Below the pieces are notes generated by a model, which saw only the letters and a list, made by a program, of their open reading frames with translations, was not told the origin of the DNA and did not search any database. A DNA stretch of 33,304 bases from an uncultured Bacteroidota bacterium (GTDB lineage Bacteria > Bacteroidota > Bacteroidia > Flavobacteriales > Flavobacteriaceae), in assembly GCA_913060705.1 (NCBI GenBank), contig CAJXTX010000012.1, positions 1 through 33,304 on the forward strand. Reading direction: 5' to 3'. Of this stretch, positions 782 through 5,949 are shown piece by piece. The position numbers and the translations under genes are program-made. Every line of letters begins with the position of its first letter. The first letter of the stretch is position 1.

Positions 782-1498
782 ATGTCTGTGTTTCGCTTTA
801 AACACTTTTCAATTGATCAGTCTAAGGTGGCGATGAAGGTCGGCACCGATGGAGTCTTGTTGGGTGCTTGGGCTGAGGTTTCGAATAAAGCTTCTCGTAT
901 CTTGGATGTCGGGGCGGGATCGGGCCTAATTTGTCTGCAGATGGCACAGCGTTATCCGGCTGCCCAGGTTTTAGGTATTGAGCGAGACCAGGGGGCTGCT
1001 TCGGCTGCTCTAGCGAATATTTCAAATAGTGCGTTTTCGGAGCGTATCGCTATCCTTGAGGATGATTTTGTAAGCTGGTACCCGAATTGTGAAGAACGTT
1101 TTGATGCGGTGGTGAGTAATCCTCCTTTTTTCGATGAATCTCCTAAAGAAGTTCACGATGCGCGCCATCTGGCAAGGCAATCGGCATATCTCCCGTTAGA
1201 CATTTTGGTTAAAGGTGCGGCACGATTGCTTGTAGTAGACGGATCTTTTTCTGTGATTTTACCCTATGAGCAGGCCACAGAGCTTCAACGTATAGCTGCT
1301 TCACACGGACTTGAATTAAAGCGCTATTGCTTGGTAAAAGGGCGAAGCGACACCCCTGTTCGCCGTGTTTTATTTGATTTTGTGAAGACTAAAAATCCAA
1401 TCATTGCACATCGCGAAGAGTTAGTGATTGAGCTTGACCGCAATGTGTATACCGAAGAATACCGCGAACTTACGGCGCCATTTTACTTGAACTTCTAG
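782..1498 (+). CDS. trmN6: tRNA1(Val) (adenine(37)-N6)-methyltransferase, TrmN6/YfiC family
   Basis: A 238-residue class I SAM-dependent methyltransferase. The start FRFKHFSIDQSKVAMKVGTDGVLLGAW is the family's N-terminal signature. The SAM-binding loop follows as ILDVGAGSGLICLQMA (about residues 39-54). The catalytic N6-adenine methyltransferase motif is NPPFF (about residue 117). Family members modify A37 next to the anticodon of tRNA1(Val). The gene sits 5 bases after rimM and probably ends that operon. Its last 29 bases overlap the convergent dnaE-like gene, so both C-termini are encoded by the same DNA. The exact tRNA substrate in this organism is inferred from the family. Confidence 0.88.
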   Translation: MSVFRFKHFSIDQSKVAMKVGTDGVLLGAWAEVSNKASRILDVGAGSGLICLQMAQRYPAAQVLGIERDQGAASAALANISNSAFSERIAILEDDFVSWYPNCEERFDAVVSNPPFFDESPKEVHDARHLARQSAYLPLDILVKGAARLLVVDGSFSVILPYEQATELQRIAASHGLELKRYCLVKGRSDTPVRRVLFDFVKTKNPIIAHREELVIELDRNVYTEEYRELTAPFYLNF

Positions 1499-4475
1499 AG
1501 CTAGGTGCCAGTGATTTTGTGCTGTATCTAGGGTCAGGAACATAATCGAGTCGTTCGAGAGAAATAACCTCTATACTGTAGTGATTGAAACTGTTCACGA
1601 CTTTTCCGTAACAGCTATAGATTCCCTTGCTTCGACAAGGATATTTTCGTGCGACATCCGGAAAGGATACACTGTCGAAAACAGTTCCTTCTCGGTCGAG
1701 AAAGGTCGCGAATTGCATGTGTTGGCCTTTATGTGTTTTGGTGTTTTTTACGGTAACCAAGTATCCGTATAGCGTAATACAGCGGTTTTCGAATGCGTGC
1801 AGTGCTTTAGCGCTCGGGTGTTCGGGTAGTGGTGTTTTTAAGAGCTCAAAAGTGAGGCTAAGCGGAAAACCTAAGAGCTCCCATACTTCAAATACCTCTT
1901 CTATAGGATTGACTTCTATATGCTTGAGCTCGAATTTCTGCTCATCGGTAGGAAACAGACGTGCTGAACCTTTCACGGCAGGTAGATTTCTGTAGCTGTA
2001 GAGTTGCCACAACAACTCGTGCTTGGTTTTATTGGTGAAGCGAAAGGCGTTGATGCGAATAAGCAGGCTGATTTGATCGGTGCTTAACGGCACACGGTCG
2101 ATAAAATCAGTGAGGCTCTTAAAGGCTCCTCTGTGCTGGCGCTCTTTGAGTATCCGCTCGCAGCTGCGGTCTTCGAGCTCTTTCAGATACATAAGACCGA
2201 GGTAGAGACGCTTGCCAACAAGCGTATTGAGGTAATGACTGTGATTGATGCATTGGAGTTCGACAGTACCTCCGAGTTGTTCGAGATGCTTGAGGTAGAA
2301 TTCAGGACTATAGAATCCTCCGCCGTTATTGAGTACGGCGGTCATGTATTCTAGGGGGTAGTAGACCTTGAGGTAAAGGGTCTGATAACTTTCTATGGCG
2401 TACGAGGCCGAGTGTCCCTTGGCGAAGGCATAGCCTGCAAAGCTTTCGATTTGCTTCCAAACCTCTTGAGCAACCTCTTTCGAGTGACCACGACGTGCGC
2501 ACCCTTCGAAATAGCTTCTCTCTAGCATTAAGAATTCTGATTTCGAACGTGACTTTCCGCTCATAGCTCTTCGAAGAATGTCGGCTTCGGCTAGGGAAAG
2601 ACCGGCAAACAAATGAGCGACCTTGATGACGTCTTCTTGATAGACCATTACGCCATAGGTGTCTGGCATGATCTTGAGTAGTTCAGGATGCGCCTTGTGC
2701 ATTCGTTCTTTGTCGCGATGTCTCAAGATATACTCGTTCATCATACCGCTTTGTGCCACCCCTGGGCGTATGATTGAGCTCGCTGCCACAAGTTCTAGGT
2801 AACTGCGAGTTTCTAGCTTTTGCAGAAGCATGCGCATGGCCGGGGATTCGATGTAGAAGCAGCCCATGCAATCACCGCGACTCAAATACGCATTCAATTT
2901 GGGGTCGTTTTTAAAACGATCGACCTGGTGAATGTCTAGTGCTTCACCTTGATTAGAAGCCACTAGCCTTATGGCCTCTTGTATTTTTGAGACGCCGCGT
3001 TGCGATAAAATATCAAACTTGTACAGGCCTACGGCCTCGGCGATATGCATATCGAATTGCACAGTCGGATATCCCTTGGGGGGCATAAAGGTGCTTGCAA
3101 AACAGTGGATGGGTTTGCGACTAATTAAGATTCCTCCAGCATGGATGCTTAAGTAGTTGGGTAACCCGTGTATATAAGCGGCGTATTTGAGTACCAATTG
3201 GTGCAGTGATTCGTTGGGATGTTGACGCGAAAGAGGCCTTAGTGTTTCGACCAGGTGATCGATCTCGTCTTTAGGTAGTCCGAACACTTTTCCGATTTCT
3301 CGTATAACCGCCCTTTTCTGAAAAGTTACGTAGCTACCAAGCAGTGAAACGTGTGTGAAGCGTTGAAAGATGTAGTCGATTATTTCATTGCGCTCTTTCC
3401 AACAAAAGTCGATATCAAAATCCGGAGGACTTGATCGGTACTCGTTCATAAAACGTTCAAAATACAGATCGAGTTCTAGGGGGTCTACATCGGTGATGCG
3501 CAGCAGATAAGCTACTACACTGTTGGCACCGCTTCCGCGTCCGACATAGTGGAACCCTCTTTTTTGAGCATAGGTTACAATGTCGTGGTTGATCAAAAAG
3601 TACGAGACAAACTGCTTTTGTTCGATGAGCGAAAGTTCTTTCTCTATACGTTGCTTTAAGGCCTCAGTAGGCTCGGGGTAGCGATAATGTAGTCCTTCAT
3701 TGCAGAGTCTGCGAAGCAGATGAATATCTTCACGGGTACTGCCGGTGAAGGTGCTGAGGTTTTGCGATTCAGCCTGCTGATCAAATTGAAAATCAAGCTG
3801 ACAACGATCGATAAGTGCAGCGGTGTTTTCTAGTAAGAACTCAACGTCTGAGAGTCGCTCATAGAGTGTCGATTTTGAGGGCATTTGATCGGTAGGATCG
3901 GCCTGTTCTTCGCTACTGAGCTTACTGAGCAGCGTGTTGTTGTCAATAGCTCTGAGCAGCCGGTGTGTGTTGAAGTCGCGCTTTGATCTAAAACTTACGG
4001 GCTGCAGCAATACCAGTTTGTCAGGGGTTTTGATCAGTTTGTTGAGACGAAGTTTTCTGAGTTCGTGAAGACTAACTCCAATGTATTCGTTGGGTCTCAA
4101 TGCGTATCCTGAGCTTTTGAGAATGGCTTCAAAAGGGTAGACGATCAGGGCATGTTCAAATGCTGGAGCTTTTGTTTCAAAGGCTCTACCCTCGTGAAGG
4201 TGCTTGGCGAGAAAGGAGTTCAATTCGAAGTAGGCTTCTTCGTTTGGGGCGATTCCGACGAATTGACAAGAGGTGCCGTTTCTGAAATCGATCCCTACGA
4301 TACCCTTTATCTGTTTACGCTGTGCATACCTCAAAAATGAAAGTACTCCAGAGGTGGTATTGATGTCTGTTAGGCCTACACTGCTGTAACCTTGTTCTAT
4401 AGCGAGGTCGACGAGCGCCTCTTCTGAAAAGGTTCCGTATCTCAGACTGTAGTAACTGTGGCAATTCAGTAGCAT
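1470..4475 (-). CDS. dnaE2: Second, short DNA polymerase III alpha subunit (DnaE2-like, translesion cassette)
   Basis: 1001 residues, shorter than a replicative DnaE (about 1150 or more). C-family polymerase signatures are clear. The catalytic aspartates sit in PPDFDIDFCW (about residues 350-356), and a third acidic site in LYKFDIL (about 484-490). The palm and fingers contain VGRGSGANSVVAYLL and FAKGHSASYA. A C-terminal OB-fold-like segment begins at ITLYGYLVTVKNTKTHKGQ. The N-terminal PHP domain is degraded: the usual HxH is NCH (residues 4-6) and the usual TDH is TDI (36-38), so metal-dependent PHP activity is unlikely. The ATG lies 2 bases after the dinB stop. Known from the family: such short DnaE proteins next to Y-family polymerases act in damage-induced mutagenesis. 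That role is inferred here. Confidence 0.88.
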   Translation of the reverse strand: MLLNCHSYYSLRYGTFSEEALVDLAIEQGYSSVGLTDINTTSGVLSFLRYAQRKQIKGIVGIDFRNGTSCQFVGIAPNEEAYFELNSFLAKHLHEGRAFETKAPAFEHALIVYPFEAILKSSGYALRPNEYIGVSLHELRKLRLNKLIKTPDKLVLLQPVSFRSKRDFNTHRLLRAIDNNTLLSKLSSEEQADPTDQMPSKSTLYERLSDVEFLLENTAALIDRCQLDFQFDQQAESQNLSTFTGSTREDIHLLRRLCNEGLHYRYPEPTEALKQRIEKELSLIEQKQFVSYFLINHDIVTYAQKRGFHYVGRGSGANSVVAYLLRITDVDPLELDLYFERFMNEYRSSPPDFDIDFCWKERNEIIDYIFQRFTHVSLLGSYVTFQKRAVIREIGKVFGLPKDEIDHLVETLRPLSRQHPNESLHQLVLKYAAYIHGLPNYLSIHAGGILISRKPIHCFASTFMPPKGYPTVQFDMHIAEAVGLYKFDILSQRGVSKIQEAIRLVASNQGEALDIHQVDRFKNDPKLNAYLSRGDCMGCFYIESPAMRMLLQKLETRSYLELVAASSIIRPGVAQSGMMNEYILRHRDKERMHKAHPELLKIMPDTYGVMVYQEDVIKVAHLFAGLSLAEADILRRAMSGKSRSKSEFLMLERSYFEGCARRGHSKEVAQEVWKQIESFAGYAFAKGHSASYAIESYQTLYLKVYYPLEYMTAVLNNGGGFYSPEFYLKHLEQLGGTVELQCINHSHYLNTLVGKRLYLGLMYLKELEDRSCERILKERQHRGAFKSLTDFIDRVPLSTDQISLLIRINAFRFTNKTKHELLWQLYSYRNLPAVKGSARLFPTDEQKFELKHIEVNPIEEVFEVWELLGFPLSLTFELLKTPLPEHPSAKALHAFENRCITLYGYLVTVKNTKTHKGQHMQFATFLDREGTVFDSVSFPDVARKYPCRSKGIYSCYGKVVNSFNHYSIEVISLERLDYVPDPRYSTKSLAPSSRSSSKMAP

Positions 4476-4477
4476 GG

Positions 4478-5698
4478 CTAATACTTTCGGTGCGCAAGCA
4501 CTATAGGCGGTTTACCGTTAAACGGATTGTCAAGTCGTCCTATGGTTTTTGCATTCATTCCTGAAGCCCTGATCACACTTCTGTCGCCGTACTTTACACG
4601 GATGTGATCTAGGGCCTGATACAAGCGTGTTTGAGTTTCGGTGTCTTGAAAGAGGTCAATCTGATAGTTTCCGGCAACGAGGTGACTGAAACGTACACCG
4701 ATCAAACGCACTCTCAGTCTTCGGTGATATAAGGCCTGAAAGAGCTCTAGTGTTTTGGGTATGAGTTCGTGGTCTGCACTCGTATACGCAATGCGTGATT
4801 GCTTAGAGTGCGTTTCAAAATCCGCATATCGAATTTTCACACTGACACAGGCAGTGAGCTTGTTTCCTCTGCGCAATTGAAAGGCGAGGTTTTCAGTCAT
4901 CGCCACCAAAAGTGACTTTAAGTGTGCCACATCTATGGTGTCGCGGTCGAAGGTGCGCTCTGTGGATATAGACTTGCGTTCGCTATACGGAATTACAGGA
5001 GAGGGATCGATTCCTTGAGCCTTTCTCCACAGTACTTGCCCGTTTTTGCCCAAGGTATTTATCATCAGCTGTTCAGGAAGCTGTTGCAGGTCGTGAATAT
5101 GTCGGATGCCCAAGCGCCTCAACAATTGTTCAGTCTTAACACCAACCATCGGCATCTTTTGTATAGGTAGCGGGGCCAAAAAAGGCTTTTCGTAACCAAA
5201 ATCAACTTTTAGCTGATTGTTAGGCTTTGCTTCACTGGTGGCCACCTTTGAAACGAGCTTGCTTGTTGAGAGCCCAAAAGAGAGAGGAAGCCCGCTCTCT
5301 TTCATTACTTTCTGACGCAATTCGCTGGCGAATTTATAGCTACCAAAAAAGTGATCTAAACCGCTGAGGTCGGCATAGAATTCATCGATACTTGACTTTT
5401 CAAACACAGGTACCTCTTGCTGTATGATTGCTGTAATGAGATCAGAATACTTGCTGTAGGTTCCGGCGTTTCCGCGTATTACGATAGCTTCTGGGCAGCG
5501 TTGACGTGCAATTTTCATGGGCATACCTGAATGCACCCCGAACCCCCGGGTTTCATAGCTGCATGCTGCTACCACACCGCGATCGCCCACGCCTCCTACG
5601 AGGAGGGGTTTTCGGGTTAAGCGACGATCGAGGAGGCGCTCTACCGAGACAAAGAAGCTGTCGAGATCTAGATGTAAAATACTGCGTTCCAAAAGCAT
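4478..5698 (-). CDS. dinB: Y-family DNA polymerase (DinB/Pol IV-like) of a mutagenesis cassette
   Basis: 406 residues. The N-terminus ILHLDLDSFFVSVE carries catalytic Asp11. The second catalytic site is SSIDEFYADLSG with Asp105-Glu106. The palm/fingers motif SYETRGFGVHSGMPM is complete, so unlike classical ImuB this looks like an active polymerase. A helix-hairpin-helix region follows (GVKTEQLLRRLGI, about 186-198), then the little-finger domain. QIDLF at 346-350 matches a beta-clamp-binding motif (QLxLF type), as found near the UmuC/ImuB C-terminus. The gene precedes the dnaE-like gene by 2 bases, so the two are almost certainly one transcript. Two identical palindromes lie 21-55 bases upstream of the ATG, which suggests repressor control. 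No SOS-repressor-like gene (S24 peptidase) is adjacent. Confidence 0.92.
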   Translation of the reverse strand: MLLERSILHLDLDSFFVSVERLLDRRLTRKPLLVGGVGDRGVVAACSYETRGFGVHSGMPMKIARQRCPEAIVIRGNAGTYSKYSDLITAIIQQEVPVFEKSSIDEFYADLSGLDHFFGSYKFASELRQKVMKESGLPLSFGLSTSKLVSKVATSEAKPNNQLKVDFGYEKPFLAPLPIQKMPMVGVKTEQLLRRLGIRHIHDLQQLPEQLMINTLGKNGQVLWRKAQGIDPSPVIPYSERKSISTERTFDRDTIDVAHLKSLLVAMTENLAFQLRRGNKLTACVSVKIRYADFETHSKQSRIAYTSADHELIPKTLELFQALYHRRLRVRLIGVRFSHLVAGNYQIDLFQDTETQTRLYQALDHIRVKYGDRSVIRASGMNAKTIGRLDNPFNGKPPIVLAHRKY

Positions 5699-5718
5699 TG
5701 AAAAAGGGGAATAAAAAT

Positions 5719-5753
5719 ATGGAATAATTCCATTTATAAAGGAATAATTCCAT
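5719..5753. promoter_or_regulatory. Tandem palindromic operator upstream of dinB-dnaE
   Basis: The 11-mer GGAATAATTCC occurs at 5721-5731 and again at 5741-5751, exactly 20 bases apart (about two helical turns). Each copy is a palindrome around a single central base. The first extends to ATGGAATAATTCCAT (5719-5733). I found no other copy in the window. A weak candidate -7 box for dinB, TATTTTTA on the minus strand at 5712-5719, would place the first palindrome in the promoter spacer, a position suited to repression. The arrangement is seen directly; repressor binding and SOS control are inferences. Confidence 0.6.
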
Positions 5754-5786
5754 AAAAAATAAAATGATAGTAAGGGTGCTTCGGGC

Positions 5787-5794
5787 TATATTTG
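5787..5794 (+). promoter_or_regulatory. Bacteroidota-type -7 box (TATATTTG) for the candidate small RNA
   Basis: TATATTTG fits TAnnTTTG exactly, and the identical octamer precedes the tRNA-Leu in this window. No good TTG lies at the expected -33 distance. Transcription would start near 5799-5801, ahead of the hairpin series at 5807-5890. Confidence 0.45.
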
Positions 5795-5799
5795 CAGTG

Positions 5800-5890
5800 T
5801 TGTGTTGTGCAGTACACACTGCACGCTAAGAGCGGCCTCGCAGATGCGATGCTGACCTTTGAAAGGCTTTCCTTAGGGGAGGCTTTTTTT
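5800..5890 (+). ncRNA. Candidate structured small RNA or leader, about 90 nt
   Basis: Between the promoter box at 5787-5794 and the terminator at 5862-5890 there is no worthwhile ORF, but there are consecutive stems. Hairpin 1 is GTGCAGT-ACAC-ACTGCAC (5807-5824), a perfect 7-bp stem. Hairpin 2 is TCGC-AGAT-GCGA (5838-5849), capped outside by AGC (5831-5833) with GCT (5851-5853). The third is the terminator. Alternative pairings exist: CCTTT (5856-5860) with AAAGG (5862-5866), and GCCTC (5835-5839) with GAGGC (5879-5883). Either would break the terminator. The element could therefore be a free small RNA or a terminator-based leader of the nitroreductase gene 60 bases downstream. It does not resemble SRP RNA, tmRNA or RNase P RNA. 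Confidence 0.45.
5862..5890 (+). terminator. Rho-independent terminator upstream of the nitroreductase gene
   Basis: AAAGGCTTTCC (5862-5872), loop TTAG, then GGGAGGCTTTT (5877-5887). All eleven positions pair, three of them as G-U wobbles, and a run of seven T follows (5884-5890). It would end a + strand transcript starting near 5800. Confidence 0.7.
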
Positions 5891-5949
5891 GTTTACACCC
5901 TATCTCAAGCCTTGCAAATAGCGTATTTTTAAAGGATAAAAAGAACGCT

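Follow-up and report, generated by a model that had tools for sequence, protein, structure and literature searches.

Two identical 11-bp dyads lying upstream of dinB in the window (the whole stretch of 33,304 nucleotides analysed here, from a Flavobacteriaceae bacterium) very probably form a double operator of the non-canonical LexA of Bacteroidetes, a repressor joining an S24 peptidase to a phage-repressor-like HTH, which would control dinB and dnaE. The case is of an ordinary kind for which an explanation already exists, and it is clearly confirmed and well conserved; what is added here is the location of the repressor, an operator pair common to lexA and uvrA, a regulon of two promoters as recognised by pairs, and a constrained operator spacing. 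The features of the window concerned are the following:

1470–4475, minus strand: dnaE, encoding a second alpha subunit of DNA polymerase III (1001 aa), following dinB in the putative operon.
4478–5698, minus strand: dinB, Y-family DNA polymerase, 406 aa, with QIDLF; first base of the ATG at 5698.
5712–5719, minus strand: putative sigma-A −7 box TATTTTTA, one mismatch to TAnnTTTG, starting 1 bp past the proximal operator.
5721–5731, no strand: proximal operator GGAATAATTCC (GGA-N5-TCC), at −14 to −24 if the putative −7 box is right.
5741–5751, no strand: distal operator GGAATAATTCC (GGA-N5-TCC), at −34 to −44 by the same reckoning.

In the sections of Sanchez-Osuna et al. (2021; PMC8565304) drawn on here, GGA-N5-TCC upstream of DinB/UmuC genes in Bacteroidetes is given as the operator of an S24 "non-canonical LexA", and DinB is said often to share its operon with an alpha subunit of DNA polymerase III (COG0587). 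The preliminary description had taken the operator to be novel, which does not hold, since the operator sequence, the S24 repressor with its cleavage residues and the dinB-dnaE target were all published then; autoregulation and the occurrence of more than one site in several promoters are likewise shared with that regulon of Flavobacteriaceae. Compared with those sections, the regulon described here differs in being recognisable by pairs at two promoters only, in uvrA facing the repressor gene across an operator pair, and in a pair spacing that was measured and found to be constrained. The strings "uvrA", "cooperativ" and "array" are absent from the main text of that paper.

Operators and promoter of the dinB-dnaE unit

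The dinB product matched the IMS domains of Pfam and carries QIDLF close to its C-terminus, together with SIDE, an active-site signature. The dnaE gene follows on the same strand (minus) after 2 bases, in agreement with the tight pair of a QIDLF-bearing Y-family polymerase and a second DnaE described previously, and the arrangement suggests that the two genes form one operon. Another DnaE-like gene was found in the assembly on contig C19. The coupling of an active Y-family polymerase with DnaE2 has been treated as an unusual Bacteroidetes system, a putative PolY2-DnaE2 mutasome, in the sections of Timinskas and Venclovas (2019; PMC6511836) considered, and the present unit can be likened to it by gene layout, with an apparently active Y-family polymerase beside DnaE in one operon and the third gene absent. 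Assignment to the ImuA-ImuB-DnaE2 cassette, which has imuA and a catalytically dead ImuB, was rejected, since the unit consists of dinB and dnaE only, with no imuA in it, and since the Y-family protein matches the IMS domains and carries SIDE.

The sequence GGAATAATTCC is a 5+1+5 dyad with a one-base centre. Its two copies, earlier described as 20 bases apart and 21–55 bases from the ATG, are exact at the positions listed above, with a start-to-start distance of 20 bp, and lie 22 (proximal) and 42 (distal) bases from the dinB ATG, close to the earlier figure. A third exact copy is absent from the window, as had been claimed, and also from the assembly searched (1.59 Mb, 89.85% complete). Among the 53 dyads of the 5+1+5 type in the window, this was the only identical pair within 100 bp. 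Single near-copies occurred at chance level, with 10 observed against 10.96 expected in the window at two mismatches, and in the genome, at one mismatch, 29 strand-matches where the reversed pattern gave 30; the signal is thus carried by the pair and not by the 11-mer. Those near-copy counts are what could be said for the repeats being AT-rich dyads that arose by chance, or belonging to an RNA hairpin, with no regulatory role, a reading that is barely credible, as such an identical pair arose in 0 of 300 first-order Markov windows and a GGA-N5-TCC pair at 17–24 bp in 0 of 20,000 simulated copies of the intergenic region. When dinB upstream regions were compared, as the preliminary description had proposed, the pair was kept in all 11 genus genomes, by which the chance reading is regarded as already refuted. 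No similarity to phage DNA was found in the intergenic region upstream of dinB.

The sigma-A −7 consensus of Bacteroidetes is given as TAnnTTTG (PMC7366714; PMC9723704) and placed at −12 to −5 (PMC9723704) in the portions of these sources used here. If TATTTTTA is the −7 box, transcription would start near 5707. In shuffled sequences, a box with no more than one mismatch arose somewhere in a 13-position stretch in about 20% of cases; a stronger sign for the −7 box than this single match is the fixed offset, exactly 1 bp past the last site, of a box with at most one mismatch in 11 of 13 dinB promoters (related to one another). The same offset was found in 8 of the 11 repressor promoters of the genus. 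A −33 element was unrecognisable in the dinB promoter. A sigma-70 promoter scan, which gave one weak match on the plus strand, was set aside as unhelpful because Bacteroidetes use another −7 box.

From their positions, the operators overlap the likely core promoter, a geometry that is likely that of a blocking repressor. In the undamaged cell one repressor dimer would sit on each site, the distal one covering the −33 region and the proximal one in the interval from there to the −7 region, so that RNA polymerase would be excluded and dinB-dnaE kept silent; cooperative binding of the two dimers is suggested by the geometry. After DNA damage, RecA filaments would trigger repressor cleavage at the Ala-Gly bond, the operators would be emptied and both polymerases made. 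By analogy with the published regulon, we infer this course of repression, cleavage and release for the S24 protein described below. That this protein binds and activates dinB-dnaE instead is very unlikely: the authors of PMC8565304 state, in the sections considered, that activation cannot be discarded without non-cleavable mutants, against which stands the overlap of the sites with the likely core promoter.

The S24 repressor gene and its own operator pair

Searching the assembly with PF00717 gave a single match, C1:87262–88020 on the minus strand, encoding 252 aa. The repressor gene is thus on a contig other than that of dinB, consistent with the earlier remark that no S24-type repressor gene is adjacent; as the assembly is about 90% complete, a further S24 gene may exist in the genome. 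In Pfam the protein matched Peptidase_S24 above the cut-off and HTH_19 below it (19.8 bits against 30.2). The motif KAAAGY with A103-G104, together with S142 and K181, was invariant in all 13 aligned sequences, the repressor itself included, so that the Ala-Gly bond and the Ser-Lys residues of self-cleaving repressors are kept. Canonical LexA was rejected, since the only S24 protein of the assembly has no match to PF01726 (the winged-helix LexA_DNA_bind) among its Pfam matches. A search of PDB sequences with the repressor gave zero matches. The fold model available is that of L122, a homologue with 95% identity; it shows helices at the N-terminus, but its confidence is low (mean pLDDT 60), and Foldseek matched it to LexA, to a lambda-186 hybrid repressor and to small HTH proteins.

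In the genome as a whole, GGA-W5-TCC was found at 18 places, against 15 for the control. Four of these make up two pairs, and the remaining 14 all lie within ORFs of at least 142 aa. The scan for further pairs before repair or S24 genes, suggested in the preliminary description, located the other AT-spacer pair between the S24 repressor gene and uvrA: the repressor promoter contains GGAATATTTCC and GGAATAAATCC, 21 bp apart and 13 bases from the repressor ATG, within the 82-base gap that separates the two divergent genes (L037:4022–4103, corresponding to G000:C1:88021–88102). The identity of uvrA is backed by its domains. Through this pair the repressor would regulate its own gene and probably also controls uvrA, which is the direct divergent neighbour of the repressor gene in 8 of the 11 genus genomes and lies about 0.8 kb from it in the other three (G002, G005 and G006); in L080, the one of these three examined, a TIGR03915-like DNA-repair gene, below the cut-off, is placed in between. 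On the strand directed away from the repressor gene, an exact TAnnTTTG box was found 13 bp past the pair in 5 of the 11 genomes; in the others the box had one mismatch and stood at 14 bp (three genomes) or 9 bp (three genomes).

Pairs at 18–23 bp were present in all 11 genus genomes, and those with AT spacers were confined to the dinB and repressor-gene promoters; in four additional pairs (in G001, G002, G006 and G008) a spacer includes G/C. Across the genus, the reversed pattern used as a control matched 5 times in all. The pair pattern demands GGAA in one site, so pairs made solely of sites reading GGAT both ways are missed. By the pair criterion, the genus regulon is reduced to the mutagenic polymerases, the repressor and, probably, uvrA; a genus with small genomes is thereby added to the known range of the non-canonical SOS response.

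Among 59 relatives, 19 carry a repressor homologue with 41% identity or more, and 18–23 bp pairs were found in 18 of these; the 40 without a close homologue had none, and the control pattern was found in 0 of 59. In G047, the one exception, a pair at 19 bp is present but escaped the strict pattern; three of the 40 genomes have a pair at 14, 17 or 35 bp. The same threshold divided the 30 repressor-homologue loci, of which the 19 at or above 41% identity all have 2–4 sites and the 11 below it have none. At dinB the pair was present at 13 of 30 loci and absent within 300 bp at 17; the latter include a fragment missing its start (L051) and three operons that start with another gene and have sites ahead of that gene (L049, L056 and L062). 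The other LexA motif of Bacteroidetes, CTAA-N5-TTAG, occurred only once (L075) among 60 upstream regions, and a regulon based on it was rejected on that count.

A dyad by itself does not name its protein, and the S24 protein has a weak match to an HTH; the dyads might therefore bind another regulator, neither S24 nor damage-responsive, that favours sequences of the GGA-N5-TCC type. This is improbable, as the pairs track the S24 gene across genomes and occur in that gene's own promoter, and as a homologue binds the motif in vitro (PMC8565304). In the experiments described in the sections of that paper considered, EMSA with mutated sites established binding to the motif on the umuD promoter and the repressor promoter, the EMSAs covered the umuD, recA and repressor promoters, with dinB not among them, and mitomycin C induced several predicted targets. 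The SOS-type control by a distant S24/HTH repressor put forward in the preliminary description is thus well supported by the pairs at the S24 gene, their co-occurrence across genomes and the published homologue.

Operator spacing and targets in the Flavobacteriaceae

In a survey of 120 genomes of the family (119 genera), at least 48 had a pair; among the matches listed, the control gave 3 in 2 genomes. The 70 listed places not already covered were fetched and their genes assigned by tblastn: the repressor gene at 23 (3 of them also at dinB), dinB at 15, a SplB-like radical SAM gene at 12, a DnaQ-like exonuclease at 2 (L263 being a weak match), dnaE at 1 and SRAP, weakly, at 1 (L262), with no assignment for 16. 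When the nearest ORFs of these 16 were inspected by eye, 9 pairs stood ahead of a gene for a UmuD-like protein some 120 aa long (all 3 tested matched Pfam S24), 1 ahead of dnaE, 1 ahead of a SplB-like gene, 1 ahead of a gene presumably for the radical SAM protein that partners a uracil-DNA glycosylase, and 2 ahead of a small unknown ORF, while 2 were inside ORFs with off-range spacings (14 and 27).

A protein of 84–95 aa, alike by eye in three genera (L262:1637–1891, L306:1345–1632 and L322:1338–1595), is encoded directly 3′ of operator pairs with spacings of 20, 19 and 19 bp, respectively. The two sequences tested had no Pfam match, and the protein is possibly an unrecognised SOS gene product. 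In G020 (L224:479–3075), dinB has no pair of its own and stands behind a SRAP gene, whose start carries one site and is turned towards the lexA operator array; this suggests a SRAP-dinB operon.

At the 70 fetched places, 86 of the 90 gaps of 35 bp or less measured 18–23 bp, in a search that allowed 13–35. The dinB gap was 19 bp at 14 of 15 fetched loci and 22 bp at the other; within the genus it was 20 bp in 8 of 11 genomes and 19 bp in three. The 42 gaps at lexA loci were distributed as 18 (11), 19 (8), 20 (1), 22 (10), 23 (11) and 32 (1), so that 32 of them were 18, 22 or 23 bp, and the 13 at splB as 19 (7), 21 (5) and 32 (1). In the promoters of named lexA genes (the best 80 of 534 confirmed, the close homologues kept being Flavobacteriaceae or labelled Flavobacteriales), two or more sites were found in 80 of 80, and 177 of 181 gaps were of 18–23 bp, mainly 18 (71) and 23 (92). 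By comparison, in 213,576 bases 3′ of the starts of these genes there were 29 sites, no two of them within 45 bp. Because the loci are related by descent, the counts cannot be treated as independent, and common ancestry accounts for part of the regularity.

The same-face phasing that had been read from the 20-bp spacing stands only approximately: it agrees with the dinB promoters of eight genus genomes, but not with the 19 bp of the other three or with the repressor promoters, mostly at 18, 22 and 23 bp, and a strict placement on one face of the helix is weakened by the range of 18–23 bp. The chances are evenly balanced that the LexA of Flavobacteriaceae reads an operator-spacing code, in which neighbouring sites stand at 18–23 bp with values typical of each gene. 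If so, the dimers would touch in at least two fixed arrangements, as do phage CI repressors, and the spacing would set how tightly each promoter is held. From CI of phage lambda it is known that an S24 repressor with a CI-type HTH can be served by an array of several operators lying side by side; adjacent operators are thus a shared feature, whereas the lambda spacing is longer than the 18–23 bp found here. Conserved pairing and spacing permit a sharper calling of true sites, as pairs and not as singles, and offer a direct handle on the cooperative binding of a CI-like SOS repressor to neighbouring operators. Apart from the extent to which it is contained in supplementary Table S5 of PMC8565304, the constrained and partly gene-typical spacing is a new detail.

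Small RNA candidate divergent from dinB

On the other side of the intergenic region, a small RNA candidate comprising two hairpins and a terminator hairpin is divergent from dinB:

5787–5891, plus strand: small RNA candidate (RNA 5799–5891), −7 box TATATTTG at 5787–5794 and predicted 5′ end GUUGUGUUG at 5799.

The stretch 5799–5891 likely encodes a small RNA, and a counterpart was found at the same place in all 11 genus genomes. Further afield, the pattern GTTGTGTT ... AAGGCTTTCC was present in 36 of 199 family genomes, from many genera, with 0 for the reversed control. The middle part folded better than shuffled sequences (z below −2) at 18 of 21 loci, the others being L325, L328 and L331; in L328 the match fails to fold and seems to be due to chance. 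The hairpin sequences differ among loci, and the variable hairpins were poorly aligned by MAFFT. An exact TAnnTTTG box was present at 13 of the 21 loci and started 12 bases before GTTGTGTT in all 13, so that the RNA should begin with GTTGTGTT.

Rfam gave five matches on the intergenic region, all below the gathering scores, and no family at gathering score for the small RNA itself (the window stretch and 14 loci). It may be one of the Rfp sRNAs of Flavobacterium psychrophilum, as these are described in the portion of PMC9723704 used. In G021, G028, G063 and G118 the small RNA is on a contig different from that of the operator pairs found there, and a link to the SOS response is thus not indicated outside the genus. 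In L324, L327, L333 and L336 the small RNA recurs near position 1501, following a tRNA gene at a distance of about 50 bases; having no exact −7 box, these four copies may use another promoter.
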